Origin: a virus
Direction: 5' to 3' (one strand)
Length of the DNA: 37,282 nt
Virus record (IMG/VR): IMGVR_UViG_3300031839_000695
Location: 1-37,282 of that record
The translations under genes were made by a program, and so were the position numbers. Shown here in pieces: positions 1 to 37,282 of this stretch. How positions within the stretch are numbered: the stretch's first letter is position 1; each line of letters starts with the position of its first letter. The notes beneath the pieces are model-generated. The model was not told where the DNA came from, ran no database searches, and saw only the letters and a program-made list of their open reading frames with translations.

Positions 1-89
1 AGCTGATGCTCCACACGGTACAGGATTTCGTACGTCTTGAGCAGCAGTTGGTACGCGTTAGCGCGCGCTGCGGTTAAACTCTTCGTCAT
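1..89 (-). CDS. Small protein beginning MTKSLTAARA, C-terminus cut by the window edge
   Basis: This is the first 29 or so codons of the 59-aa gene seen complete at 36609-36788, with the same start and nucleotide-identical here. In this copy the start codon sits directly behind the AAGGAGAGC ribosome-binding site that serves the 62-aa cassette gene in the right copy. The cassette deletion therefore moves the gene under a new translation signal. It overlaps the end of the 39-aa gene at 58-177 in another frame. Function is unknown. It is incomplete only because the window starts here. Confidence 0.6.
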   Translation of the reverse strand, partial: MTKSLTAARANAYQLLLKTYEILYRVEHQ

Positions 90-177
90 CCCAGCTCTCC
101 TTAATCCATTCGTCATACGTTAAGAAACATTTCCGGTGATAAGACCAAAAGCGACATTGTTTATACACATCACTCAT
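58..177 (-). CDS. 39-aa hypothetical protein MSDVYKQCRFW..., left variant
   Basis: The translation starts MSDVYKQCRFWSYHRKCFLT and ends DDEEFNRSAR. The homologous copy at 36917-37033 differs at a few residues and ends DDEEFGPSR, because the cassette boundary falls inside its last codons. The body is rich in aromatic residues and basic at first (CRFWSYHRKC), then acidic (DEWIKESWDDEEF). Its 3' end encodes DDEEF in one frame and the start ATGACGAAGAG of the next gene in another. Conservation of the frame between two diverged copies supports real coding. No family was recognised. Confidence 0.6.
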   Translation of the reverse strand: MSDVYKQCRFWSYHRKCFLTYDEWIKESWDDEEFNRSAR

Positions 178-494
178 AACGCTATCATCCTGTGATTAAT
201 AATTACTTGCACCGTTACGTCCCATTCGGTTGAATAAGCATACGCTGCTGCCATTTGTTTTGCAACATCTATTACACGCTCTCGCACGTCACCGTTAACG
301 TGATCGGACCAGAAAGGTATGGTGATGACGGGTTGCACCACGGAGTCGCAGTAAATCTTTATCAGAGCGTCCATATCGAAGCTCTCAGGCGACGTAAACG
401 GGTTAGGCATAGGGCTGTACTGCCTAGCCTCAGCGGCCTGCATAGCGGCCTCTGCGGCCTCCTGGCCGGCTTGTATCAATTCTGCTGTCGTCAT
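174..494 (-). CDS. Hypothetical early protein, about 106 aa, left copy
   Basis: The product has an Ala/Gln/Glu-rich helical N-terminus (about residues 1-27) followed by a globular part with NPFTSPESFD, PFWSDHVNGD and VTVQVIINHRMIAL. A partial right-hand copy is at 37030-37282 with two substitutions (VVQP/VVEP, VIDVAK/VIEVAK), both conservative, so the frame is under protein-level constraint. Two ATGs lie in frame, at 500 and 494. The GAGG just upstream is spaced correctly only for 494, although ATG500 overlaps the previous stop as ATGA. Function is not recognised. It is one of the run of small minus-strand genes. Confidence 0.65.
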   Translation of the reverse strand: MTTAELIQAGQEAAEAAMQAAEARQYSPMPNPFTSPESFDMDALIKIYCDSVVQPVITIPFWSDHVNGDVRERVIDVAKQMAAAYAYSTEWDVTVQVIINHRMIAL

Positions 495-496
495 GG

Positions 497-730
497 TCAT
501 GCCTCAATCTCCCAGCGGTCATTGGTTTCGTACACTGTGCCCCAGTTTGCGGGGAACACGGTTTCGCTGCGCAGGTTTCCGTCGCGCCTGTCCTGCTTCC
601 ACTTCACAATCTCTTCAAATTGTTTTTGGTATGGCTCGCCGTTTGCTAAGCAGCGTGTGCGCTCAAGCCGGCGGTGCTGCAGGTCGATGCCTTGCGCAAG
701 GTAGCGCGTTAGCTCTGTGCCAAGATTCAT
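497..730 (-). CDS. Hypothetical protein, 77 aa
   Basis: A charged, mostly helical small protein (LTRYLAQGIDLQHRRLERTR..., FEEIVKWKQDRRDGN) ending DRWEIEA. The start at 730 has a clear ribosome-binding site (AGGAGAAAACGCT-ATG on the minus strand). The stop overlaps the next start as ATGA, so translation is probably coupled to the 174-494 gene. I recognise no domain. Its place among tightly packed small minus-strand genes, first in line from the control region, suggests an early host-takeover or accessory role, which is inference only. Confidence 0.6.
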   Translation of the reverse strand: MNLGTELTRYLAQGIDLQHRRLERTRCLANGEPYQKQFEEIVKWKQDRRDGNLRSETVFPANWGTVYETNDRWEIEA

Positions 731-773
731 AGCGTTTTCTCCTGTTGAACTGGTAAGTAATCCTTACACGTTA

Positions 774-823
774 CACTTTACTGCGCATAGTTTGCGGCGA
801 TTCGCACACTTTTCTGCGCATAG
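774..823. repeat. 17-bp direct repeat pair in an intergenic spacer
   Basis: CACTTTACTGCGCATAG (774-790) and CACTTTTCTGCGCATAG (807-823) differ at one base and lie 33 bp apart, in the 115-bp gap between two minus-strand genes. Each carries the palindrome TGCGCA. The gap also contains GCGTGGGCCGTAGCG (823-837), a relative of the triple repeat in the control region. I see no sigma70-like promoter here, so a protein-binding or RNA-processing site is possible. Confidence 0.6.
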
Positions 824-845
824 CGTGGGCCGTAGCGCCACACAC

Positions 846-1127
846 TCATAGCCCATACTCCTCGTGCCAGTCTGTAATGCTTTCCATGTAGTCGTCAATC
901 TCTTGATAATACTTCGCGTCTATGGCCTTCGCTAGCGCTTCCTCAAAGCCGGCGAAGCGCTTGCCCACTTCCAGCAATAGCGGCGACAAGTCGTCCCCTA
1001 TGGGGATGTAAAGCTCGTCCGAATCGCCTGCCGCTATGGTTTCGCGGAGCCACTCTTGCGCCAACCCTTCCCGTATCTTTGCTTTCTCGCAAAGCCATTC
1101 ATAGTTTGCGTCATAGTCTAGCGCCAT
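846..1127 (-). CDS. Hypothetical acidic protein, 93 aa
   Basis: Acidic protein starting MALDYDANYEWLCEKAKIRE and ending DDYMESITDWHEEYGL, probably mostly helical, with no transmembrane segment. ATG at 1127 is preceded by GGAGCAATGACGA and overlaps the end of the upstream membrane-protein gene (ends 1118) by 10 bases, indicating coupled translation. No family was recognised. Strong acidity is common in early phage inhibitors of host enzymes, but nothing specific points there. Confidence 0.6.
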   Translation of the reverse strand: MALDYDANYEWLCEKAKIREGLAQEWLRETIAAGDSDELYIPIGDDLSPLLLEVGKRFAGFEEALAKAIDAKYYQEIDDYMESITDWHEEYGL

Positions 1128-1336
1128 TCGTCATTGCTCCCTTGCTTGCGTTGTTTGATGCCTTTATGGACCAGCATTATAAAGTTTATAACTGCGAGCG
1201 CTGGCCCAAGTGTTATAATTAACACATACTCCCACACGTTGAAAGTGTCGCGCCTGTTCTCGAAGTCTTCGGCCCACATAGCGAGCGCGCACACTATCCC
1301 GAGGGCAAGATATACAGTTAAAGCATTGATTTCCAT
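1118..1336 (-). CDS. Small membrane protein, 72 aa
   Basis: Starting at ATG1336 the product has two hydrophobic segments, about residues 4-20 (ALTVYLALGIVCALAMW) and 35-53 (YVLIITLGPALAVINFIML), separated by the charged stretch AEDFENRRDTFNVWE, and a basic tail (HKGIKQRKQGSNDEWR). I chose 1336 rather than the longer frame start at 1390 because GAGGAAAACACT precedes it and the extension would overlap the 52-aa gene upstream. It is probably a two-pass inner-membrane protein. It forms a pair with the next small membrane gene. Confidence 0.6.
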   Translation of the reverse strand: MEINALTVYLALGIVCALAMWAEDFENRRDTFNVWEYVLIITLGPALAVINFIMLVHKGIKQRKQGSNDEWR

Positions 1337-1346
1337 AGTGTTTTCC

Positions 1347-1505
1347 TCACAGTGTAAACAGTAGCGAAACAGCGAGCCACCATGTCCCAAGCAGTAGCGA
1401 AGCGGCGGCGGTGATGGCTAGGGCCGCGATGATCATGCCGGCCCATGCTGCCCAGCGATTAAGCCGGGCTTGGCGTTCGTATTCCTTGCGTGCTGCGGCG
1501 TTCAT
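1347..1505 (-). CDS. Small membrane protein, 52 aa
   Basis: The sequence begins MNAAARKEYERQARLNRW and continues into hydrophobic segments MIIAALAITAAASLLLG and WWLAVSLLFTL, so it has a basic, probably cytoplasmic N-terminus and one or two membrane passes. The ATG overlaps the stop of the upstream gene as ATGA (1505-1502), and the TGA lies 11 bases before the next start, so it sits inside a coupled operon. Its tight fit between neighbours is the main support. No family was recognised. Confidence 0.6.
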   Translation of the reverse strand: MNAAARKEYERQARLNRWAAWAGMIIAALAITAAASLLLGTWWLAVSLLFTL

Positions 1506-1918
1506 GCTTCCACCTCCCGCGCAGCGATGATGCGCTCCGCCGTATTTTCCAAGTTCCAGCTCTGGCAGGCGAAGCCGCCGCCAAACTCGCGGCCCCGGTA
1601 GACGCGGAAGCCTAGCCGGTTGGCGATCTTGTGCGCCTTGCTGTACTCATTAGCGAAGGCGAGGAAGTGGATAACGTAGCGCGGCTCGCCCTTGGCGTTG
1701 TTGTTTACGCGGTAGAAATCATGGCCGAGGGCTTGGGCAGTCTTGTAATCAAGGTGCGCCTTAGCCATACGGGAGTCCTCGTCATAGCCGTCGAACCAGC
1801 CCTCCCCGTGCGTATCGTCGCGGCGGCAGTGTGCCTGCGCTTCGTCAAGGGTCAGACCGCGCTTGATGATGCAGGGCGCGTCGTTAAAGTAAAAGCGAAT
1901 GATTTTGTAAGTTTGCAT
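1502..1918 (-). CDS. Conserved phage hypothetical protein, 138 aa
   Basis: Starts MQTYKIIRFYFNDAPCIIKR. The segment HCRRDDTHGEGWFDGYDE (about residues 29-46) resembles a motif I remember from very small phage proteins of unknown function, here followed by a second half (HDFYRVNNNAKGEPRYVIHFLAFANEYSKAHKIANRLGFRVYRG) that could be a separate fused domain. ATG1918 has GGAGAAAACACA upstream; the frame extends to 1963 without a better site. Cytoplasmic, no signal or membrane segment. Function unknown. Confidence 0.65.
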   Translation of the reverse strand: MQTYKIIRFYFNDAPCIIKRGLTLDEAQAHCRRDDTHGEGWFDGYDEDSRMAKAHLDYKTAQALGHDFYRVNNNAKGEPRYVIHFLAFANEYSKAHKIANRLGFRVYRGREFGGGFACQSWNLENTAERIIAAREVEA

Positions 1919-1943
1919 TGTGTTTTCTCCGTTACGTCCCGAA

Positions 1944-2135
1944 CTAAAAGCCAAGCTTCGCACAAACCATTTCCTGCTGCAAGCGCACCTTGAAGCCCAG
2001 CTTCTGCGCCTGCTCCAGCGTCCCTTCTGTTAGGGTTTTGGTGCCAGCGATGCGGGCTAGCGTTTCGGCCTTCTTGCATGCCGGGTAGAACTTGCGCTGG
2101 CCGTATACGTCAACTGCGCGGATGAATAGTTCCAT
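1944..2135 (-). CDS. Hypothetical protein, 63 aa
   Basis: A compact basic protein beginning MELFIRAVDVYGQRKFYPAC and containing KKAETLARIAGTKTLTEGTLEQAQKLGFKVRL. The strand-helix pattern suggests one small folded domain, but I do not recognise it. It ends 25 bases before the next gene, with normal operon spacing. Upstream (2136-2220) is a short gap containing a hairpin. Confidence rests on position, start and composition only. Confidence 0.55.
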   Translation of the reverse strand: MELFIRAVDVYGQRKFYPACKKAETLARIAGTKTLTEGTLEQAQKLGFKVRLQQEMVCAKLGF

Positions 2136-2197
2136 GATCGTATGCTCCGAATTCTGTGGCTTACCTCATCAGCGTGCGGGGAGCCATCCCGTCACGG

Positions 2198-2213
2198 ACG
2201 CCCTAGTGGGCGT
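2198..2213. terminator. Small intergenic hairpin, possible attenuator
   Basis: ACGCCC-TAGT-GGGCGT is a perfect 6-bp GC-rich stem with a 4-base loop between two minus-strand genes. No T-run follows on the minus strand, so it is not a textbook terminator. It may attenuate or protect the early transcript from 3' exonucleases. Confidence 0.4.
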
Positions 2214-2220
2214 TTCGGCG

Positions 2221-2469
2221 TTAGTAGCGGCGACCGCACACGGCCCGCGCGTTGTTGCGTGCTTCTTTTAACGCTTGGGGCTCTTCTTCGCCTTCGCTGA
2301 TCTCACCCCAAAGGTTTTCCAACAGGCTAACAATGCTGCTCATTGTGGCCCACTTGTGGTCTTCCACGTTGTCCGCATTGTTTTCTGCCGCTTGGGCCCA
2401 CTCGTACGCGCGGTGCGCTATGTGGTCCGCGAAGGCTTCTGCTTCTTTGATCAAACGCTCTTTGTTCAT
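2221..2469 (-). CDS. Hypothetical early protein, 82 aa
   Basis: Helical, acidic protein (MNKERLIKEAEAFADHIAHR..., LLENLWGEISEGEEEPQALKE) with a basic end (CGRRY). ATG2469 is preceded by CCTTGGAGCGACACACA, a leader repeated exactly in front of the next upstream gene at 2753. Both proteins start MN and are of similar length and composition, so they may be diverged paralogues, but I cannot align them convincingly. Being near the divergent control region it should be among the first minus-strand genes transcribed. Confidence 0.6.
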   Translation of the reverse strand: MNKERLIKEAEAFADHIAHRAYEWAQAAENNADNVEDHKWATMSSIVSLLENLWGEISEGEEEPQALKEARNNARAVCGRRY

Positions 2470-2486
2470 TGTGTGTCGCTCCAAGG

Positions 2487-2753
2487 TTACACAGTAAAAT
2501 CAGACGCCCAATCGTTTAGGGTTTCGTCTGAATGTTCGCTGACGTTAACGCCAGTTTCCAAGAATAAGTCAAGGTGCAGAGCGTCCAGCATTTCTTGGGT
2601 ACCTTCTGCGTCCCGCAAAAGCGCCGCAACACTTGCAAACTGCCCGTTTTTAATGGCGTCGAATGCCTCTGCGCGCATCAGTGCAAGCTTTTGGTTTTCT
2701 TCAGCGATGCGGCGAATGATGTGCGCCACCTCTGCTTTCTGTTCTGCGTTCAT
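2487..2753 (-). CDS. Hypothetical early protein, 88 aa, first gene of the minus block
   Basis: Sequence MNAEQKAEVAHIIRRIAEEN..., helical, ending in an acidic stretch (SEHSDETLNDWASDFTV). The open frame reaches 2837, but ATG2753 is favoured because it has the same GGAGCGACACACA leader as the gene at 2469. A candidate promoter (2790-2817) lies just upstream. As the promoter-proximal gene it probably belongs to the earliest expressed set. No domain was recognised. Confidence 0.6.
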   Translation of the reverse strand: MNAEQKAEVAHIIRRIAEENQKLALMRAEAFDAIKNGQFASVAALLRDAEGTQEMLDALHLDLFLETGVNVSEHSDETLNDWASDFTV

Positions 2754-2789
2754 TGTGTGTCGCTCCAAGGGCCCGCGCCGTGCGGGGTT

Positions 2790-2817
2790 GCTATACATAA
2801 TGCATCCAGCGTGCCAA
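2790..2817 (-). promoter_or_regulatory. Candidate promoter for the early minus-strand block
   Basis: On the minus strand TTGGCA (2817-2812), a 16-base spacer and TATAGC (2795-2790) precede ATG2753, with a predicted start near 2783. It is weaker than, and unlike, the six-member TATGRTAAGATA promoter family, so early transcription could differ in timing. The match is imperfect and unproven. Confidence 0.4.
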
Positions 2818-2881
2818 CTTTGGAAACACCAACACAATCAAGGGTTTAGCGTATCGGCCCAAGCGCAGCGCCTGGCGTAGT

Positions 2882-2942
2882 GTTACCTTAAGTAGCGATA
2901 GTGTTACCACCGGTAACGTAACACGGTAACAGTAACGGTAAC
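2882..2942. repeat. GGTAAC iteron cluster in the divergent control region
   Basis: GGTAAC occurs at 2912, 2925 and 2937, with near copies GTAAC at 2918 and AGTAAC at 2931, giving a 6-7 bp head-to-tail array. The inverse GTTACC occurs at 2882 and 2903. The central part is also a dyad: GTGTTAC (2901) pairs with GTAACAC (2918). Such arrays are typical binding sites for an initiator or repressor. It lies in the roughly 830-bp gene-free stretch between the two divergent blocks. Confidence 0.7.
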
Positions 2943-3025
2943 GTTTTGGGGCGCGATGGTGGCGCGTTGCTGCCGGGGCGGTTGCCGCATCGCCCTCTCA
3001 CCGCTCCCAATGTGAACACTGCTAA

Positions 3026-3079
3026 CATGTAGCAGGTGCTACGCTACCGCTGCGGACCATGTAGCAGGCGCTACGCTAC
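3026..3079. repeat. Two 22-bp palindrome-bearing direct repeats, 32-bp period
   Basis: Copies at 3026-3047 and 3058-3079 differ at one base. Each contains a dyad, GTAGCAGGTGCTAC (3029-3042) and GTAGCAGGCGCTAC (3061-3074). The period is exactly 32 bp, about three helical turns, so a dimeric protein bound at each site would face the same side of the DNA. A short GTTATAAC palindrome follows at about 3090. Confidence 0.7.
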
Positions 3080-3110
3080 TGAGTGTGATGTTATAACGTA
3101 ACGCAAGCGC

Positions 3111-3151
3111 GGGCGGGGGCGCGACGGGGGCGGGGGAGGGCTGCGCGGGGG
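3111..3151 (+). other. G-quadruplex motif in the control region
   Basis: G-runs lie at 3111-3113, 3115-3119, 3126-3130, 3132-3136, 3138-3140 and 3147-3151. The first four fit the G3+N1-7 quadruplex pattern with loops of 1, 6 and 1 bases, with spare G-runs behind. This strand-asymmetric G tract in the middle of the non-coding region is not explained by codon use. It may mark an origin, a packaging or cleavage signal, or a transcription block between the divergent blocks. Confidence 0.65.
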
Positions 3152-3300
3152 CGCGTTTGGCCGGGGTGCTGCTCCGCTTTGCAAAAAGTCCATTTTGAAA
3201 CCCAAAACGGTCACCAATCTGCACACTTTGCACACAATTCAACTGGCCTGCATAGCGCATTCTGCCTGCAAATTGTACAAAAAGTGAACAATATGGAAAA

Positions 3301-3372
3301 CTGCATGGGCCGTAACGCTCTGCATGGGCCGTTACGCTACCATTTAGCCCTCTGCGTGGGCCGTTAAGCTAC
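3301..3372. repeat. Triple repeat of CTGCATGGGCCGTTACGCT just upstream of a promoter
   Basis: Copies begin at 3301, 3320 and 3352. The second and third also share their downstream extension (CATTTAGCCCT / TATTTACGCTCT) and are spaced by 32 bp. The array ends 17 bases before the -35 box at 3390, a good position for an activator or repressor of the structural operon. Copies of the core TGGGCCGTTACG recur elsewhere near gene starts (823, 3965, 10863). Confidence 0.75.
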
Positions 3373-3389
3373 TATTTACGCTCTAGCTC

Positions 3390-3418
3390 TTGACTTTTGC
3401 TCTAAAATATGATAAGAT
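3390..3418 (+). promoter_or_regulatory. Promoter of the structural operon (P1)
   Basis: TTGACT (3390-3395), a 17-base spacer and TAAGAT (3413-3418), with an upstream TG giving an extended -10 (TATGATAAGATA). It belongs to a family of six nearly identical promoters in this genome. The predicted start near 3425 gives an untranslated leader of about 160 bases before terS. Host sigma70-type RNA polymerase is the probable user. Confidence 0.85.
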
Positions 3419-3434
3419 ATATGCTATTGTTTAG

Positions 3435-3545
3435 CTATACAGGTACACAGCGGCTAGCAGCTACAGCCTAACGACAACTGCTGACAACAAAAGCACAGCC
3501 GAAAGCCTTACGACGACAGCCGACTACCACTGACCACCTGTATAG
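3435..3545 (+). ncRNA. Structured leader RNA candidate upstream of terS
   Basis: CTATACAGGT (3435-3444) is perfectly complementary to ACCTGTATAG (3536-3545), enclosing 91 bases poor in T and rich in ACAGCC and ACGACA words. The stem starts about 10 bases after the predicted P1 start and ends about 24 bases before the terS ribosome-binding site. Most phage leaders are shorter, so a folded regulatory RNA, a replication primer or a packaging-related element is possible. No known RNA family was recognised. Confidence 0.5.
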
Positions 3546-3583
3546 GTACCGTAATGTAGCAAAATATAGAGGATGTGTATAGT

Positions 3584-3973
3584 ATGGTGGATAAGCCCGT
3601 AGCGAAGCGCGGTCGCCCCTCCAAAGCGGCACTCCAATCGACAAAAGATTTGAGTAAAAGACAGCAGGCGGCAGCATTAAAGGACTTTAGGGCACGACTT
3701 CTGTTAAACCCTAAGTCACCTGCGTTAATTGAAAAGATGTTTGATATTGCTTTTGATGATGAGCATAAGCAGCAGGCTGTAGCGCTAAAGCTTCTAGCGG
3801 ATAGGCTTATGCCCGTGGCGGGCTTTACGGCAGACGGTAAGCAGCAAGCTCAAGTTAGTATTAACATTAGTGGTATTGGTGTACCGTCTGGGTCTGTAAC
3901 CGTTGAAAACGGTGCCGATGATGCTGAAGACGGGGAATATGAAGAGCTGTATGAGTCGGAAAAGGGAGCGTAA
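3584..3973 (+). CDS. terS: Probable small terminase subunit (TerS)
   Basis: 129 aa starting MVDKPVAKRGRPSKAALQST. An AT-hook-like KRGRPSK near the N-terminus is followed by a helical core (SKRQQAAALKDFRARLLLNP...EHKQQAVALKLLADRLM) and an acidic tail (ENGADDAEDGEYEELYESEK). It sits directly before TerL, the usual position, and its length fits the family. It would recognise phage DNA and present it to the TerL motor. I use ATG3584, with AGAGGA ten bases upstream; the GTG at 3575 is too close to that site. Identity rests mainly on position and composition. Confidence 0.7.
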   Translation: MVDKPVAKRGRPSKAALQSTKDLSKRQQAAALKDFRARLLLNPKSPALIEKMFDIAFDDEHKQQAVALKLLADRLMPVAGFTADGKQQAQVSINISGIGVPSGSVTVENGADDAEDGEYEELYESEKGA

Positions 3974-3984
3974 CGGCCCACACA

Positions 3985-5244
3985 ATGGCTAACATAGACC
4001 TATCCCTCATACCGTGGCAGCAGGAAGTGTATGAAGATGACAGCCGCTTTAAGGTTGTCGCTGCTGGCCGGCGCTGCGGCAAGTCGCATCTAGCTGCCGT
4101 ATCGCTAATCGTAGCGGCCCTTAACGGTGAGCCGGGAAAGGTGTTCTATGTTGCACCAACGCAGGGCATGGCGCGTGACATCCTGTGGGAAAAGCTGTTT
4201 GAATTAGCTGGAGAGATTGTCGAGAACAGTAACATCAACAATCTAACCATCACGCTCGCTGGCGGCAACACCATATACTTAAAGGGTGCTGACCGCCCCG
4301 ACACCCTGCGGGGTGTGTCCTTGAAGTATTTGGTCATGGACGAGTTGGCGTTTATGAAGCAAGACGTATGGGAGGCTATCCTACGTCCGGCGCTGTCAGA
4401 CCTCAAAGGCAAAGCGCTATTCATCGGAACGCCTGAAGGCCGGAACCATTTCTACGATATGTGGATGGGAGGCTACTCCGGGGCGTGGGACGATTGGTCT
4501 GCGTGGCAGTTTACGTCACGGGACAACCCGTTCCTAGACAGCACAGAGATTGACCATGCGGAGGCTACGCTGCCCCGCTGGGCTTTCAACCAAGAGTACA
4601 TGGCTAGCTTTGACGCACAGGGCTCGGAGTTCTTTGATGCAGATGAGTTTATGTACTATGACGAAAAGCCCAAAGAGCTGCCGGGAGATTATTACATTGC
4701 GGTTGACTTGGCCGGCTTTGAAAGTGATAGAGGCAACAAAACTAAACGCCGAGACAATAGTGCCATTGCTGTGGTGTTTGTAGACGAGAATGGCATTTGG
4801 TGGGTTGAAGATATACAGTTTGGGCGCTGGGCGCTAGACGAAACGGCAGAGCGTATCTTTAGAGCTGTGGAAGAGTATCGTCCTCCAGCGGTTGGTATTG
4901 AGAAAGGTATTGCTCAGCAGGCCGTCATGCAGCCGCTCAGCGACATTATGCGACGCACCGCTCGTGTGTTCCGTGTGGAGCTGCTGAGCCACGGCAACAA
5001 GAAAAAGCAAGACCGCATACTGTGGGCACTGCAAGGTCGCTTAGAGCATAAGCGTATTCGCTTTAAGCATGGCGCATGGAACACGGCGCTAGTGGACGAA
5101 GCCTCTGCGTTCCCGTCACAGCTAGTGCATGACGATTTGCTTGACGCTTTAAGCTATGTGGATCAGATGGCTATTGTGCCGTACATGACCGACCTAGACC
5201 TTGAAGACGATTACGAACCATTTGATGCCGTTGCTGGCTATTAG
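3985..5244 (+). CDS. terL: Terminase large subunit (TerL), packaging ATPase-nuclease
   Basis: 419 aa. The ATPase domain has Walker A GRRCGKS (residues 28-34), Walker B LVMDE (D119, E120) and the coupling motif GTP (148-150). The RNase H-fold nuclease domain has AVDLA (D241), GIEKG (E306) and HDDLLDAL (D383, D384, D387), all catalytic elements of large terminases. It pumps DNA into the prohead through the portal and cuts the concatemer. Length suits compact terminases and is much shorter than T7 gp19. It begins 11 bases after terS. The spacer contains the inverse of the TGGGCCGTTACG motif. Confidence 0.95.
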   Translation: MANIDLSLIPWQQEVYEDDSRFKVVAAGRRCGKSHLAAVSLIVAALNGEPGKVFYVAPTQGMARDILWEKLFELAGEIVENSNINNLTITLAGGNTIYLKGADRPDTLRGVSLKYLVMDELAFMKQDVWEAILRPALSDLKGKALFIGTPEGRNHFYDMWMGGYSGAWDDWSAWQFTSRDNPFLDSTEIDHAEATLPRWAFNQEYMASFDAQGSEFFDADEFMYYDEKPKELPGDYYIAVDLAGFESDRGNKTKRRDNSAIAVVFVDENGIWWVEDIQFGRWALDETAERIFRAVEEYRPPAVGIEKGIAQQAVMQPLSDIMRRTARVFRVELLSHGNKKKQDRILWALQGRLEHKRIRFKHGAWNTALVDEASAFPSQLVHDDLLDALSYVDQMAIVPYMTDLDLEDDYEPFDAVAGY

Positions 5245-5278
5245 TCCGGGCCGCTGCGTTTAACATAAGGGAACCACT

Positions 5279-7297
5279 ATGAGTGACAACGTGTTCTTAC
5301 AAGAAGCACAATTCGGCCCAGACCAAGACTTGGCTGAGTGGGTGCTGAGCCGCTGCAACAAATGGCGTGATCACTACGAAAGCAATTACAGCGCACGGCA
5401 TGAAGAGTTTATGCGCATCTATCGTGGCATCTGGTCGCCAGAGGATGTGATGCGTGACTCTGAGCGGTCGAAGCTTATCGCTCCCGCTACGGCCCAGGCT
5501 GTTGAGTCTTGCGTTGCAGAAGTCGAAGAGGCTACCTTTGGGCGTGGCAAAATCTTTGACATCAAGGACGATGTTAACGACCAAGAGCCGGCAGACATTG
5601 CGTACCTTCGGCGCAAGCTTCACGAAGACTTTGCTGCTGCGCGCATTCGCTCCTCTGTGGCTGAAGTGCTTGTTAATGCTGCTGTGTTTGGTACGGGCAT
5701 TGGCGAAGTGGTTGTGGAGGAAATGAAAGAGTATAAGCCCGCTACGCGTCCGCTAATGGAAGGCGACATGCAAGAGGTGGGCGTGGAGGAAGTGTACCGC
5801 CCCATTGTCAAGATTAATCCGGTGCAGCCGCGCAACTTCCTTATCGACCCGAACGCCACCTGTGTCAATAGTGCCATGGGTTGCGCCATTGATGAGTATG
5901 TATCGCGCCACATTGTTGAAGAGCTGCAAGAGTCTGGCGTGTATCGGGATGATGTGTACGTAGGCAGCGCCGCAGCGGACGAAGAGATTGAGCCAGACCC
6001 CGAAATTGACAGCCGTCCCACCGACCGCGTGCGCCTCCTTAAGTACTACGGCAAAGTGCCGCGTGACCTGCTGCTGTCTGAAGGCGTTACGGAAGACGAG
6101 ATTGCGGAGAAGGGCGCATACGTTGAAGCTATTATTGTAATTGCTAACGAGGGTGAGCTGCTTAAGGCCATCCCGTCGCCCTATATGTGCCAAGATCGTC
6201 CCATCGTAGCGTTCCAGTGGGACATCGTACCGAGTGTATTCTGGGGACGTGGTGTATGCGAAAAAGCTTATATGTCACAAAAAGCCTTGGACGCGGAGCT
6301 AAGGGCACGCATCGACGCCCTCGCCCTTACTACGCATCCCATGATGGCCGTGGACGCAACACGTATCCCGCGCGGCCATAAGCTTGAAGTACGTCCTGGC
6401 CGCATGTTGCTAACCAACGGCTCCCCGTCTGATTCCATCATGCCCTTTAAGTTTGGGCAGCTAGACCAAGTAACCTTTGCGCAGGGCGCTCAGCTACAGC
6501 AGATGGTTAGTCAAGCAACCGGTGCCGCTGAGGCCAATGCCGGTATGGTACAAAACGATGTTACCGCAGCCGGCATGTCCATGACGCAGGGCGCCATTGT
6601 CAAGCGCCAGAAGCGTACGCTCGTGAACTTCCAAGAAAACTTCCTAATCCCGTTTGTGCGCAAAGCAGCACACCGTTACATGCAGTTTGACCCGGAAAAC
6701 TATCCGGTGCGGGACTACAAGTTTGTAGCGTTCAGCTCTCTTGGCGCTATGGCCCGCGAGTACGAAGTGGCACAGCTTGCACAAATCCTGCAGATGGTGC
6801 CGCCTGAGTCTCCGGCGCATGGTGCCGTTATTAAGGGCATCATCGACCACCTTAACGTCACCAACCGCGACGAACTTATTGCTGCTATTGAGGCCGGCAA
6901 CCAGCCCAACCCGGAAGCGCAGCAGATGGCTATGGCGCAGCAGCAAGCGCAGATGGCTGTGCTACAGGGTCAGGTACAGCTTCTGCAAGCACAGGCCGCT
7001 GAGTCCCAGTCCCGTGCCAACAAGTACAACACGGAAACGCAGCTTGCACCCACGGAGCTTACGCTTAAGTACAGCGACCAGAACAACGACGGTGTTGCAG
7101 ACAAAGACTTTGAGCGCCGCGTGAAGATGGCAGAGCTGCTGCTAAAAGAGCAAGAGCTGAGGGGCAAGCAAAACAGCGAAGCCGAAATGGCTAAGGCTAA
7201 AGCTGAAGCGGAATTGATTCGCCAGCTAACAGCAATGGGAGGCGCTAACGCACAGGGAGGCGCTCCAGCGCCGCAAGCGCCGCAACAGGAGCAGTAA
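5279..7297 (+). CDS. Portal (head-tail connector) protein, 672 aa
   Basis: Follows terL by 34 bases, has the size of podovirus portals, and the typical long helical, Gln/Ala-rich C-terminus (about residues 540-672, with [20 protein letters not shown]). The N-terminal part ([35 protein letters not shown]) and the middle ([30 protein letters not shown]) match my memory of portal proteins in marine podoviruses. Twelve copies would form the vertex ring for DNA packaging and tail attachment. GGGAACC-like weak ribosome-binding site before ATG5279. Confidence 0.9.
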
Positions 7298-7300
7298 GCC

Positions 7301-8314
7301 ATGGCCTCTGATCTAGCGTTACTTGCCCTTGTAAAACAAATGCAGGGCTTTACGGGACCGCAAGGCCCGCAAGGCCCTGAAGGCCCGCAAGGCGTACAAG
7401 GCCAGCAAGGCCCTGCCGGTAAGGATGGGCGCGACGGTAAAGACGGCGCTGCTGGGCCACAAGGACCGGCAGGACCGCAAGGTTTACAAGGCCCGCAAGG
7501 TCCTCAAGGACCTGCCGGAGAGGCTGGCGCTGACGGCCAGGACGGTATAGGCGTTGAGAGCGCCTACGTGGCCGCTGACGGCTCGTTAGTCTTTACCCTT
7601 ACGGATGGTAGCGAGGTAGACGTAGGACCGCTCAGCGGGCTTTCTGTGGCCTCTGAGGGCAATACGTACGTTATAGGGCAGGGCAACAAAGCCAATTCTA
7701 TTTACTTAGAGGGCATGGCCGGTCCTGCTATATGGAATAACATTGAAGGCACCGTAGACTTTCCGCTTAACGATGAGGTGACGCTGCAGCTTGGGCAAGA
7801 AGAGCTGTTCTACGCCAAAGCCTCTGAAGCTATTAGCAATGGCGAAGTCGTTATGTTTGCTGGCGCACAAGGCGACCACTTGCTTATCCAAAAGGCTGAC
7901 GTAACTGTTCCGGGCTTTAGGCAAGAGTGGGTTATCGGTGTTGCTACGCAAGACTTTGCTAACAACGACTTTGGGTACGTAACGTCTTTTGGTAAGGTGC
8001 GGGAGCTTGACACGCTAGCGTTTAACGAAGGCGACCTGCTATGGCTGTCGGCTACTACGCCCGGAGCGCTTACTAACGTAGAGCCCGCTAAGCCTGCATG
8101 CTCTGTGCTTGTTGCTGCCGTTACGCGCTCTCACCAAACACAAGGCACTATCTTTGTACGACCTACTACGACTAGCCGCATTGACGAGCTGTGCAACGTA
8201 TCGGCAGCTACGCCCAATGACGGCGACGTGTTGGCTTGGGACGCAGCGCAAGGCATTTGGAAGCCCATTGCGCCTGTCTTCCCGGCCCTTTATGGCATCA
8301 CCACCTACCCGTAA
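7301..8314 (+). CDS. Collagen-like virion protein (head fibre or appendage)
   Basis: 337 aa. Residues about 15-83 are Gly-X-Y collagen triplets ([12 protein letters not shown]..., [10 protein letters not shown]), which should trimerise. The rest is beta-rich, with a region ([24 protein letters not shown]...[24 protein letters not shown]) like the small capsid-decorating or fibre domains of phages. It starts four bases after the portal stop, with AGGAG ten bases upstream. Its place between portal and scaffold suggests a virion surface fibre rather than the main host-recognition fibre, which is probably the S74 protein at 12418. Confidence 0.8.
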
Positions 8315-8328
8315 CTAAGGAGTAGCAC

Positions 8329-8418
8329 ATGAAATCTTATGGTTACAAAAAGCCCGCTAAGAAAAAGAAGCCCGCCAACAAGCCTAAGCCGGCAAAGAGC
8401 AAGCGCCGTGGCTACTAA
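8329..8418 (+). CDS. 29-aa extremely basic peptide
   Basis: MKSYGYKKPAKKKKPANKPK and then PAKSKRRGY: roughly half Lys/Arg, with histone-H1-like (K/P/A) composition. AAGGAG (8317-8322) is spaced seven bases from the ATG, which supports translation. First of five tiny basic genes between the collagen-like protein and the second promoter. It could neutralise DNA charge in the head or bind nucleic acid; no homologue is claimed. Confidence 0.6.
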   Translation: MKSYGYKKPAKKKKPANKPKPAKSKRRGY

Positions 8419-8560
8419 GAAGTCGCCTACGCCTAAGAACAAAGCGCTGTACGCTAAGGTTAAGGCAGAGGCTAAACGTAAGTTTGACGTGTGGCCCTCT
8501 GCGTACGCTAGCGGCTGGCTAACCAAAGAGTATAAGAAACGCGGAGGCACCTATGCCTGA
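8408..8560 (+). CDS. 50-aa DUF5872-like basic protein
   Basis: Starting at GTG8408 the protein reads MATKKSPTPKNKALYAKVKA and contains KRKFDVWPSAYASGWLTKEYKKRGGTY. This resembles the short domain known from phages and large DNA viruses as DUF5872 (KVKxEAKxKFxVWPSAYASxxLxKxYKxRGG); the assignment is from memory. The frame is open from ATG8339, but GTG8408 gives the family-like N-terminus and an 11-base overlap with the previous gene. Function unknown; virion-associated in some viruses. Confidence 0.65.
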   Translation: MATKKSPTPKNKALYAKVKAEAKRKFDVWPSAYASGWLTKEYKKRGGTYA

Positions 8561-8807
8561 TAAGCCCAAGGGCGGTCTGACTAAGTGGTTTAAGGAAGAC
8601 TGGCGTGACCTCAAGACCGGCAAGAAGTGTGGCCGTTCTGGTAAGGAAAAGAACAAGCGCCCGTATCCGTCATGCCGCCCAAAGGCCGTGGCAGACAAAA
8701 TGACTGCTGCTGAAAAGCGTTCGTCTACCAAGCGGAAGACCAGCAGCAAGCCCATCAAGCATGCTGTTACGGCTTCTGGCCGTAGGAGGAAGAACAATGC
8801 CAAATAA
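8553..8807 (+). CDS. 84-aa basic, cysteine-containing small protein
   Basis: MPDKPKGGLTKWFKEDWRDL is followed by KTGKKCGRSGKEKNKRPYPSCRPKAVADKMTAAEK and a Lys/Ser-rich tail. The segment W(V/R)DLKTGKKCGRSG...RPYPSCRP recurs in many phage and giant-virus genomes beside DUF5872 proteins, as I remember it. It overlaps the previous gene by 8 bases and the next by 11. Two cysteines could form a disulfide or bind metal. Very basic, like its neighbours. Confidence 0.7.
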   Translation: MPDKPKGGLTKWFKEDWRDLKTGKKCGRSGKEKNKRPYPSCRPKAVADKMTAAEKRSSTKRKTSSKPIKHAVTASGRRRKNNAK

Positions 8808-9057
8808 GCGTACGCCTGCTAAGGGCAAGGCAAAGGTTAAGATTACTGCTAGCGGACGTAAAGTGTCGTATGGGCAGGCGGGGCAGGCTAAGGGCGGTGG
8901 GACGCGTGTGCGCCCCGGTACGTCCAAAGGCGACGCCTACTGCGCTCGCAGCGCCGGCCAAATGAAAAGCCACCCCAAAGCAGCTAAAGACCCCAACAGC
9001 CCGCTACGCCTGTCGCGTAAGCGCTGGAAGTGCAGCGGCACTAAGAGCAGGAAATAA
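8797..9057 (+). CDS. 86-aa basic small protein
   Basis: Starts MPNKRTPAKGKAKVKITASG and contains VRPGTSKGDAYCARSAGQMKSHPKAAKDPNSPLRLSRKRWKCSGTKS. The C-terminal half is a short conserved-looking module with two cysteines and many basic residues. ATG8797 has TAGGAGGAAGAACA upstream, one of the strongest ribosome-binding sites here, so it should be well made. The start lies inside the previous gene's end. Function unknown, but fits the basic cluster. Confidence 0.7.
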   Translation: MPNKRTPAKGKAKVKITASGRKVSYGQAGQAKGGGTRVRPGTSKGDAYCARSAGQMKSHPKAAKDPNSPLRLSRKRWKCSGTKSRK

Positions 9058-9058
9058 C

Positions 9059-9241
9059 ATGGCTAAAGGTGTAAATCATTACTTTAAAGACGGAAAGGTG
9101 CATCGCGGCGGTACGCACAAAATGCCCGATGGCTCTATACACAGCGGTGCTAAGCACGGCGCTAACAGCAAACGCCTATATCACTTTGGCGAATTGTCCA
9201 AAACAGCACAGGCTGCTGCTCGTAAATCAAGGTCAAAATAA
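9059..9241 (+). CDS. 60-aa basic small protein
   Basis: MAKGVNHYFKDGKVHRGGTH, then KMPDGSIHSGAKHGANSKRLYHFGELSKTAQAAARKSRSK. It is His- and Lys-rich; the DGS(I/V)HSG..H...S.RLYHF pattern is familiar from small phage structural-region proteins of unknown role. It starts one base after the preceding stop with AGGAAATAAC upstream. The promoter P2 begins immediately after its stop codon, so it closes the first structural sub-operon. Confidence 0.7.
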   Translation: MAKGVNHYFKDGKVHRGGTHKMPDGSIHSGAKHGANSKRLYHFGELSKTAQAAARKSRSK

Positions 9242-9244
9242 GGC

Positions 9245-9273
9245 TTGACATTTAGTCCAAAATATGATAAGAT
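9245..9273 (+). promoter_or_regulatory. Second structural promoter (P2)
   Basis: TTGACA (9245-9250), a 17-base spacer and TAAGAT (9268-9273); the 15 bases AAAATATGATAAGAT are identical to P1. It lies in a short gap before the genes leading to scaffold and capsid, so it should boost capsid protein output. The predicted start is near 9280. Confidence 0.85.
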
Positions 9274-9322
9274 ATAGTCTATCTTTGAAGTAACCATAAC
9301 GACTGGCCTCACGGAGACAACC

Positions 9323-9496
9323 ATGTCACTTGTAACACAAGCAAAGTTTGACGAGTTAGTTAAGAACACTACTTCCTACCTTCAGGATGTGTTCAGGCGC
9401 TTAGATGCTATTGAGGAAAAAGTTGACAAGCTACTGTCAGCTCCGCAGGCAACCACCCGTCGTAACACCACTAAGGAGAAAGTAGATGAGCAGTGA
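9323..9496 (+). CDS. 57-aa coiled-coil protein
   Basis: MSLVTQAKFDELVKNTTSYL is followed by QDVFRRLDAIEEKVDKLLSA, a clear amphipathic heptad pattern, and a polar tail. It is the first gene behind P2. ATG follows CGGAGACAACC. The stop is inside the start of the next gene (ATGAGCAGTGA, 11-base overlap), so the two are coupled. Possibly a small assembly factor; no family assigned. Confidence 0.65.
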   Translation: MSLVTQAKFDELVKNTTSYLQDVFRRLDAIEEKVDKLLSAPQATTRRNTTKEKVDEQ

Positions 9497-17543: not shown

Positions 17544-18187
17544 CGTATTTGGAAGCTGTGAATCAAGTGCTGCAGCGGTTACGTGAAGACACCGTAACGG
17601 ACGTAGTGAACCTTGATGACCCCGTAGCTGAAATGGTTACTGCGTTAATAAATGATGCTAAGCAGATTGTCGAAGATGCACACACTTGGAATGCGCTGCG
17701 GCACGAATGGTCCATTACGACTGCTGCAGATGACAACCTATATAGCTTGACAAATGCAGGAAATTATGGTAAGATAGAGGCTATCCTTAAGGATGACGGA
17801 GTGGAGCTTAAGCAAGAACAGCTAAGCGCTATTCGCAAGCGACAAGCCGCATCGCCAGCAAACAACAAACCCAAGTACTATGCAGTCAACGGTGTAGACG
17901 GCAATTACGACATCCAAATACAGCTATTCCCGAAACCTGATGGCGTATACAACTACACCGTATACGGCTTCAAGCGTCAAGCAGAACTCAGCAACAAAGA
18001 CGATGTATTGCTTGTGCCTTCTAAGCCCGTTGTGTACACGGCGCTAGCTATGGCTGCGCGTGAGCGTGGCGAAGTAGGCGGTCAAACGGCAGCGGAGCTG
18101 TTCTCGCTAGCTAATGTGTACCTTAGCGACGCTATTGCTTGGGATGCTTCCCTTAACGATTACGATAACGTCTGGATGACTGTGTAA
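17540..18187 (+). CDS. Tail tubular protein A (T7 gp11-like adaptor), 215 aa
   Basis: MTYLEAVNQVLQRLREDTVT is the typical start of gp11-type adaptors, followed by helices (VAEMVTALINDAKQIVEDAHTWNALRHEW) and a beta region (YNYTVYGFKRQAELSNKDDVLLVPSKPVVYTALAMAARERGEVGG). It forms a ring joining the portal to the nozzle. ATGA overlap with the preceding gene; its stop overlaps the next start. A perfect promoter-family match lies inside it at 17747. Confidence 0.9.
   Translation: MTYLEAVNQVLQRLREDTVTDVVNLDDPVAEMVTALINDAKQIVEDAHTWNALRHEWSITTAADDNLYSLTNAGNYGKIEAILKDDGVELKQEQLSAIRKRQAASPANNKPKYYAVNGVDGNYDIQIQLFPKPDGVYNYTVYGFKRQAELSNKDDVLLVPSKPVVYTALAMAARERGEVGGQTAAELFSLANVYLSDAIAWDASLNDYDNVWMTV
17747..17775 (+). 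promoter_or_regulatory. Intragenic promoter (P3) inside tail tubular protein A
   Basis: TTGACA (17747-17752), a 17-base spacer and TAAGAT (17770-17775) with TATGGTAAGATA, matching the family that precedes replication genes. It lies in coding sequence but agrees in both boxes, spacer and extended -10, so chance is unlikely. It would raise transcription of nozzle and ejection protein genes. Confidence 0.7.
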
Positions 18188-36446: not shown

Positions 36447-36609
36447 GTTCTTCCTCCGCAGCCTCAAGTCCCACCTCTATGGCACGCAGCACGCCCAAGC
36501 TAAGGAACGCATGGGCCGCTTCGCTGTCCATATCAAGCACTACCGTAGCGCTGCCGTCTTCGTTCTCCACTATGTCAATCACTTCGACGTGAAACTTTTT
36601 AGCTTCCAT
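36439..36609 (-). CDS. Small conserved-type phage protein, 56 aa
   Basis: MEAKKFHVEVIDIVENEDGS, then ATVVLDMDSEAAHAFLSLGVLRAIEVGLEAAEEEHE. The strand-strand-helix plan with NEDGSATV..DMD.E....L..G...AI..G resembles a widespread short phage protein. GGAGGAGCAGTG precedes ATG36609, and the start overlaps the previous stop as TGATG. Function unknown. Confidence 0.7.
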   Translation of the reverse strand: MEAKKFHVEVIDIVENEDGSATVVLDMDSEAAHAFLSLGVLRAIEVGLEAAEEEHE

Positions 36610-36788
36610 CACTGCTCCTCCTCGTCAGTGTTCAGCTTTTCATCAAGCAATTCAATAGCTTGCGCAATGTCAATAAGCAATCGCGCTTCGTCGTCGCTAA
36701 GCTGATGCTCCACACGGTACAGGATTTCGTACGTCTTGAGCAGCAGTTGGTACGCGTTAGCGCGCGCTGCGGTTAAACTCTTCGTCAT
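36609..36788 (-). CDS. Small hypothetical protein, 59 aa (complete copy)
   Basis: MTKSLTAARANAYQLLLKTY, then EILYRVEHQLSDDEARLLIDIAQAIELLDEKLNTDEEEQ: wholly helical, acidic at the end. Its first 15 coding bases equal those of the 62-aa gene upstream (both start MTKSL), and that repeat is the border of the variable cassette. The start lies inside the 62-aa gene, whose last codons (DDEEFNRSAR) use the same DNA in another frame. The same gene is cut at 1-89. Confidence 0.65.
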   Translation of the reverse strand: MTKSLTAARANAYQLLLKTYEILYRVEHQLSDDEARLLIDIAQAIELLDEKLNTDEEEQ

Positions 36789-36945
36789 CTATAGTCTCCA
36801 GAAAGCGTTGCATTAAACTCTGATACGAACTGACGCCAGCCATAAAACCCTCGCGCCATTGTTCAGTTTGTAAGCTAAGGACAAACTCGTCAAATTGTAG
36901 CGGTTTCTCTAGCAACTTAACGAGACGGTCCAAACTCTTCGTCAT
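36757..36945 (-). CDS. 62-aa cassette gene present only in the right variant
   Basis: MTKSLDRLVKLLEKPLQFDE, then FVLSLQTEQWREGFMAGVSSYQSLMQRFLETIDDEEFNRSAR, helical with W..GF..GV. Start at ATG36945 behind AAGGAGAGCTGGG. Both ends overlap neighbours through the same word, read as DDEEF in one frame and as the MTKSL start in another. It is missing from the left copy by a clean in-register deletion. Function unknown; a dispensable accessory gene. Confidence 0.7.
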   Translation of the reverse strand: MTKSLDRLVKLLEKPLQFDEFVLSLQTEQWREGFMAGVSSYQSLMQRFLETIDDEEFNRSAR

Positions 36946-37033
36946 CCCAGCTCTCCTTAATCCATTCGTCGTAAGTTAAAAAGCATTGCCGATGGTAAGA
37001 CCAAAAGCGACATTGTTTATACGGATCACTCAT
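36917..37033 (-). CDS. 38-aa hypothetical protein MSDPYKQCRFW..., right variant
   Basis: MSDPYKQCRFWSYHRQCFLT, then YDEWIKESWDDEEFGPSR. Same gene as 58-177, with substitutions VYK/PYK and RKC/RQC and a different last few residues because the cassette border alters its end. It overlaps the start of the 62-aa gene. Presence in two variants at about 95% DNA identity supports the frame. Confidence 0.6.
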   Translation of the reverse strand: MSDPYKQCRFWSYHRQCFLTYDEWIKESWDDEEFGPSR

Positions 37034-37282
37034 AACGCTATCATCCTGTGATTAATAATAACTTGCACCGTTACGTCCCATTCGGTTGAATAAGCATACG
37101 CTGCTGCCATTTGTTTTGCAACTTCTATTACACGCTCGCGCACGTCACCGTTAACGTGATCGGACCAGAACGGTATGGTGATGACGGGCTCCACCACGGA
37201 GTCGCAGTAAATCTTTATCAGAGCGTCCATATCGAAGCTCTCAGGCGACGTAAACGGGTTAGGCATAGGGCTGTACTGCCTA
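37030..37282 (-). CDS. Hypothetical early protein, N-terminus cut by the window edge
   Basis: The same gene as 174-494. Visible part starts at RQYSPMPNPFTSPESFDMD-like sequence near the edge and ends VTVQVIINHRMIAL. It differs from the left copy at two residues (Q/E and D/E). The missing N-terminal codons lie beyond the window, that is, at 427-494 of the left end if the genome is circular. Confidence 0.65.
   Translation of the reverse strand, partial: RQYSPMPNPFTSPESFDMDALIKIYCDSVVEPVITIPFWSDHVNGDVRERVIEVAKQMAAAYAYSTEWDVTVQVIINHRMIAL

Follow-up and report, generated by a model that had tools for sequence, protein, structure and literature searches.

A 62-amino-acid (aa) gene is present in one form of a tightly packed operon of small phage genes and absent from another, and this presence/absence polymorphism is probably best explained by the insertion of a small accessory gene at the start site of its downstream neighbor. 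Both forms occur in the window (the entire 37,282-base stretch analyzed here), one at each end. Pairwise alignment of the contig ends showed that positions 1 to 426 equal positions 36700 to 37282 minus 157 bp; the ends are therefore two alleles of one locus, which we refer to as empty (left) and filled (right). Positions 1 to 90 are identical to 36700 to 36789, the 157-bp indel follows, and the remaining 351 bp (76 to 426 versus 36932 to 37282) match at 95.7%. The indel comprises one copy of a 15-bp word, GATGACGAAGAGTTT, and a unique insert body of 142 bp (36790 to 36931, minus strand). In the filled allele, three minus-strand genes overlap in series: gene A (38 aa, MSDPYKQCRFW...DDEEFGPSR; 36917 to 37033), the 62-aa gene (MTKSLDRL...DDEEFNRSAR; 36757 to 36945), and gene B (59 aa, MTKSLTAARA...DEEEQ; 36609 to 36788). 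As described in the first-pass annotation, these genes are joined by two copies of the word; they overlap by 29 and 32 nt, and the last codons of gene A sit within the 62-aa gene in another frame. That annotation had also described a left variant with one word, which we locate at 76 to 90, and no 62-aa gene, and had called both neighbors intact and overlapping there. The frames are indeed open, and the minus-strand gene A (39 aa; 58 to 177) overlaps the start of gene B by 32 nt, but the end of gene A differs, reading NRSAR in the empty allele and GPSR in the filled allele. Gene B is cut by the contig end on this side; its 5' part (1 to 89, minus strand) is 100% identical to 36700 to 36788.

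The border word occurs in three exact copies across the window, all on the minus strand (36932 to 36946, 36775 to 36789, and 76 to 90), against a chance expectation of 0.06 even with up to two mismatches allowed. In the upstream frame every copy encodes DDEEF, whereas in another frame it forms the start of the next gene, with ATGACGAAGAGT opening that frame (MTKS, then L); the double reading proposed earlier thus holds at all three. Copy 1 encodes the tail of gene A and the start of the 62-aa gene, copy 2 the tail of the 62-aa gene and the start of gene B, and the single copy in the empty allele the tail of gene A and the start of gene B. The two right-end copies lie 157 bp apart. Chance almost never repeats an exact 15-mer within 400 bp (1 of 40 Markov simulations); the window holds 16 such pairs in total, several of which belong to other repeats. 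A Shine-Dalgarno-like AAGGAG precedes copy 1 and GGAG precedes copy 2 at equal spacing. The AAGGAGAGCTGGG-ATG that serves gene B in the empty form serves the 62-aa gene in the filled form, where gene B is instead preceded by an equally spaced GGAGACTATAG-ATG.

The occurrence of both alleles in one record led us to consider how the contig ends arose. The empty allele occurs in this record solely at the contig end, and the flanks common to both alleles measure 90 and 91 bp, which suggests that two arms of an assembly-graph bubble were placed at both ends of one record. Another record, IMGVR 3300032081_000670, differs from window positions 76 to 9367 at 15 sites, all within 115 to 335, is otherwise identical, and carries the filled form through without a break. 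Because the ends look like bubble arms and this second record is unbroken, the left form most likely comes from another strain in the sample rather than from a second copy within one genome. The same difference located exactly at the contig ends, with its short shared flanks, could also be taken to mean that the left end is chimeric and that the assembler created the two forms. We regard this as highly improbable, since both forms are internal elsewhere (filled in L001 to L003, empty with an identical word in L005); assembly accounts for both alleles being in one record, not for the existence of two forms. Given that the two ends overlap and differ as strains do, this record probably represents a complete genome of roughly 36.7 to 36.9 kb, terminally redundant or circularly permuted.

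Relatives were sought with the 108-aa gene upstream of gene A (174 to 500, minus strand; its contig-truncated C terminus is the 78-aa frame beside gene A at the right end), with genes A and B, and with DNA patterns, all of which converged on one set of contigs. The 62-aa gene is present in three of these contigs and absent from 16, in 11 of which genes A and B are separate and overlapping and in five of which they are fused. Both forms therefore exist in independent contigs. The filled form is a single haplotype, 583 bp of which are identical in L001 to L003 and the right end of the window (36700 to 37282), and insertion is thus seen no more than once. The empty form with an A/B overlap is found in L004 to L011, L019, L022, and a contig from 3300028388 (L110/L137), the last of which was placed from coordinates and is not among the aligned forms. 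In the aligned empty forms, the distance from the start of gene A to that of gene B is a constant 88 nt, except that the ATG of L019 lies 3 nt further on. The five remaining contigs (L012:4324-4581, L013:554-808, L014:575-832, L015:4264-4521, and L016:1854-2111) have a junction 10 bp shorter that joins A and B in a single frame of 84 to 85 aa, so that two small proteins encoded separately in other contigs are naturally fused. A search for relatives with zero, one, or more cassettes between the A-like and B-like genes had been suggested at the outset; zero and one were found, but no different cassette was.

This distribution bears on the direction of change. Direct repeats of 15 bp at a distance of 157 bp form a classical substrate for deletion, and the junction of the left allele is exactly what a deletion between the two words predicts, as if the ancestor of the lineage had carried the 62-aa gene and the left allele had lost it. 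Yet all 16 contigs without the gene, close and distant outgroups included, are empty, which makes insertion the more parsimonious direction. Moreover, the empty and filled ends are separated by 15 further SNPs within 221 bp beside the junction, so the empty end is not a simple deletion product. The earlier description of the 62-aa gene as cleanly lost is at odds with both observations, and we consider loss unlikely.

Whether the insert encodes a protein is central to interpreting it as an accessory gene. We found no homologue of the 62-aa protein beyond the 100% identical copies in the three filled contigs, its 46 free codons remain open in 7.5% of shuffles, and it has no match in Pfam or PHROG. 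The frame might thus be open by chance, the 157-bp insert being noncoding or the by-product of an illegitimate event. Against this, the codon score of the gene body is 0.22 log2 per codon, compared with -0.25 +/- 0.15 in stop-free shuffles, of which a fraction of 0.0008 equal or surpass it, and exceeds that of every out-of-frame open segment; in addition, a ribosome-binding-like site lies before the ATG. The free codons therefore score like phage coding sequence, the gene is likely to be translated, and a chance frame is very unlikely. Because the filled form is one haplotype, it offers no sequence variation with which to test selection on the protein. The 142-bp body matches only the three filled contigs and the window itself: no homologues were detected in 2.9 million viral contigs beyond these three, 50,697 phage records yielded nothing notable, and no convincing similarity appeared elsewhere in the window or in the relatives. 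Gene B, conserved in 19 viral contigs, and gene A, with homologues in 14, have no meaningful match in Pfam or PHROGs, and no relatives of gene B were confirmed in 84,980 bacterial and archaeal genomes.

We then considered how a gene can be added without disrupting frames that overlap. The body of gene A is invariant at most positions and conserved to approximately ...KESW, and the tail beyond this point is not conserved, ending variously in DDEEFNRSAR, DDEEFGPSR, DDEELNRSAR, DDEQA, NDPTTD, or DD-stop. Judged from these alignments, the tail of gene A is whatever the start of the next gene encodes in the other frame, and the overlapped frames survive because the upstream tail is unconstrained. 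The first-pass annotation attributed to the word an ability to let a gene enter or leave without breaking frames; the neighbors are open in both forms, but this is not a property of the word, as the tail is nonconserved and can even be absent. The word itself is the first five codons of gene B plus one base, and it drifts along with gene B, with relatives carrying GATGACTAAGAGTTT, GATGACGAAGAGCTT, GATGATGAACAAGCT, AATGACCCCACGACT, and others; the exact form is present at the junction of one empty relative, L005. Since relatives carry differing words there, GATGACGAAGAGTTT is merely the start of gene B, contrary to the expectation that it would be conserved at cassette borders, and we rejected it as a conserved or dedicated recombination site. 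What appears to be a designed two-way word is an unconstrained tail read over a constrained start.

An exact repeat flanking an insert resembles a target-site duplication, and the word could in principle be where a mobile cassette system recognizes or duplicates its target. Besides the drift of the word with gene B, several features argue against such a dedicated element, which we view as extremely improbable. The one small frame of the 142-bp body lacks a family match, and the insert encodes no recognizable recombinase. Folding that might favor slippage between the words is no stronger than in shuffles (z = -0.41), and the extended junction word is absent from every other phage group among the 2.9 million viral contigs. 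With respect to morons, autonomous inserted genes with a promoter and terminator of their own, the 142-bp body lies entirely within the 62-aa frame and so has no intergenic space.

Based on these observations, we propose the following model. In the ancestor, gene A would have run into gene B, the first codons of which wrote the out-of-frame tail and stop of gene A. In one lineage, a 157-bp unit would have been inserted at the start of gene B, and the newcomer would have adopted the ribosome-binding site already there, together with the ATG and the first five codons (MTKSL). The insert would have brought its own GGAG and a second copy of the word, restarting gene B, and the incoming junction would again have provided stops for the upstream frames, such that no frame was broken. 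The leftover 15-bp repeat might let the unit be excised precisely, through replication slippage or single-strand annealing; alternatively, alleles may be exchanged with empty phages through recombination in the flanks. Counting against the insertion model, the searches revealed neither a donor nor a homologue for the insert, and the word at both borders is thus unaccounted for. The recombination step proposed earlier, homologous recombination at the word, is doubtful, although the existence of both forms and their open frames stand. A 15-bp match is below the usual RecA minimum, and for this reason slippage or annealing appears more likely than ordinary homologous recombination. Among the genes of this phage are those for an exonuclease and an endonuclease VII-like protein.

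The wider operon also varies in gene content. From gene A to the primase, gene orders differ across 12 haplotypes, and the gene next after gene B is any of five, depending on the relative. Many operon genes have acidic final codons that also serve as ribosome-binding sites, such as GAGGAGGAGCAGTGATG (EEEQ, stop, next start), and words of this kind are shared before different genes at neighboring junctions. Those junctions hold many different cassettes, whereas at the A/B junction the word drifts and the 62-aa gene is the sole module found. In L013, a 65-aa gene is flanked by copies of the 16-bp AAAAGCAAAGGGAGAG 200 bp apart, and L014 has one copy, though another gene differs there too. The third gene of L012 ends in THHAKR, a tail borne elsewhere by another family (fam4), because this tail is written by the start of the following gene. 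These findings support the view that exchange of small genes at start-site borders (ribosome-binding and start signals) is a general habit of this region. A bolder reading, which we offer tentatively and consider possible rather than probable, is that overlapping starts act as general docking points, with first codons serving out of frame as an interchangeable tail and stop, and that the operon is a string of exchangeable cassettes. If so, small genes could come, go, or replace one another while every frame stays intact.

Elsewhere in the window, a 23-bp exact repeat, CCTTGGAGCGACACACAATGAAC, opens two consecutive minus-strand genes 284 bp apart (2459 to 2486 and 2743 to 2770). We examined this start-site repeat (2464 to 2770) as a second in-window cassette and rejected it: L011 has a different gene at that place, its start preceded by the similar CACACACAATG, and no single-word empty site. 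Separately, glycine-rich small genes with short repeats (VKGSVWGSIGGSVGGDIHGDVKGSVHG) recur as operon cassettes, at L009:4593-4874 and in L006 between gene B and the primase.

The general principle behind this locus is already published, and the present case is a tidy instance of it. As judged from the sequences, the locus fits the "short conserved boundary sequence" model of phage mosaicism, in which gene-sized modules of lambdoid phages are swapped at gene borders via short shared sequences (Clark et al. 2001, HK620; Susskind and Botstein 1978; as cited in PMC3029335 and PMC3233612). Here the insert is bounded by the starts of two successive genes, so that module borders are gene borders, and short exact homology is present at both borders (15 bp; 16 bp in the second case, L013). 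Unlike the lambdoid boundary sequences as those sources present them, the word is not conserved between lineages, and its 15 bp serve in two frames as C terminus and start. A closer parallel is mycobacteriophage Island3 gene 68, a small orphan gene that Brujita lacks and that has its 18 C-terminal residues in common with the gene upstream of it; recombination between ~50-bp sequences was invoked, as a route to either insertion or deletion (Pope et al. 2011, PMC3029335). Both loci combine a present/absent small orphan, a direct repeat at the borders, and C-terminal residues shared with the upstream gene, but here the repeat is 15 bp instead of about 50 bp and takes in the downstream gene's start. 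Illegitimate recombination with selection for function is an alternative model of mosaicism (PMC3233612) that would likewise place borders at gene junctions. Alone, it would not leave an exact 15-bp repeat, though it may still explain the original insertion.

The locus thus offers a clean, nearly base-exact example in which a small gene appears to enter a packed phage operon by capturing a start site while the next gene receives a new one. Out-of-frame C-terminal tails in such operons may represent passive read-through into the next gene and not functional peptides. The example should help in the annotation of small, overlapping genes in phages, and it informs the debate over boundary homology versus illegitimate recombination.

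The locus belongs to an uncultured tailed phage that is probably podovirus-like, as matches to portal and head-tail adaptor proteins suggest. The best matches of its ribonucleotide reductase are in Roseobacter and Rhizobium phages (about 60% identity), and the small-gene operon adjoins replication genes. Directly after the portal gene, positions 7301 to 8314 encode a tail-fibre-like protein with collagen-like (Gly-Pro-Gln) repeats. A promoter-like sequence, CTTGAC...ATGATAAGATA, occurs in three plus-strand copies (3389 to 3427, 9244 to 9282, and 17746 to 17784), the second and third being 85% and 74% like the first.
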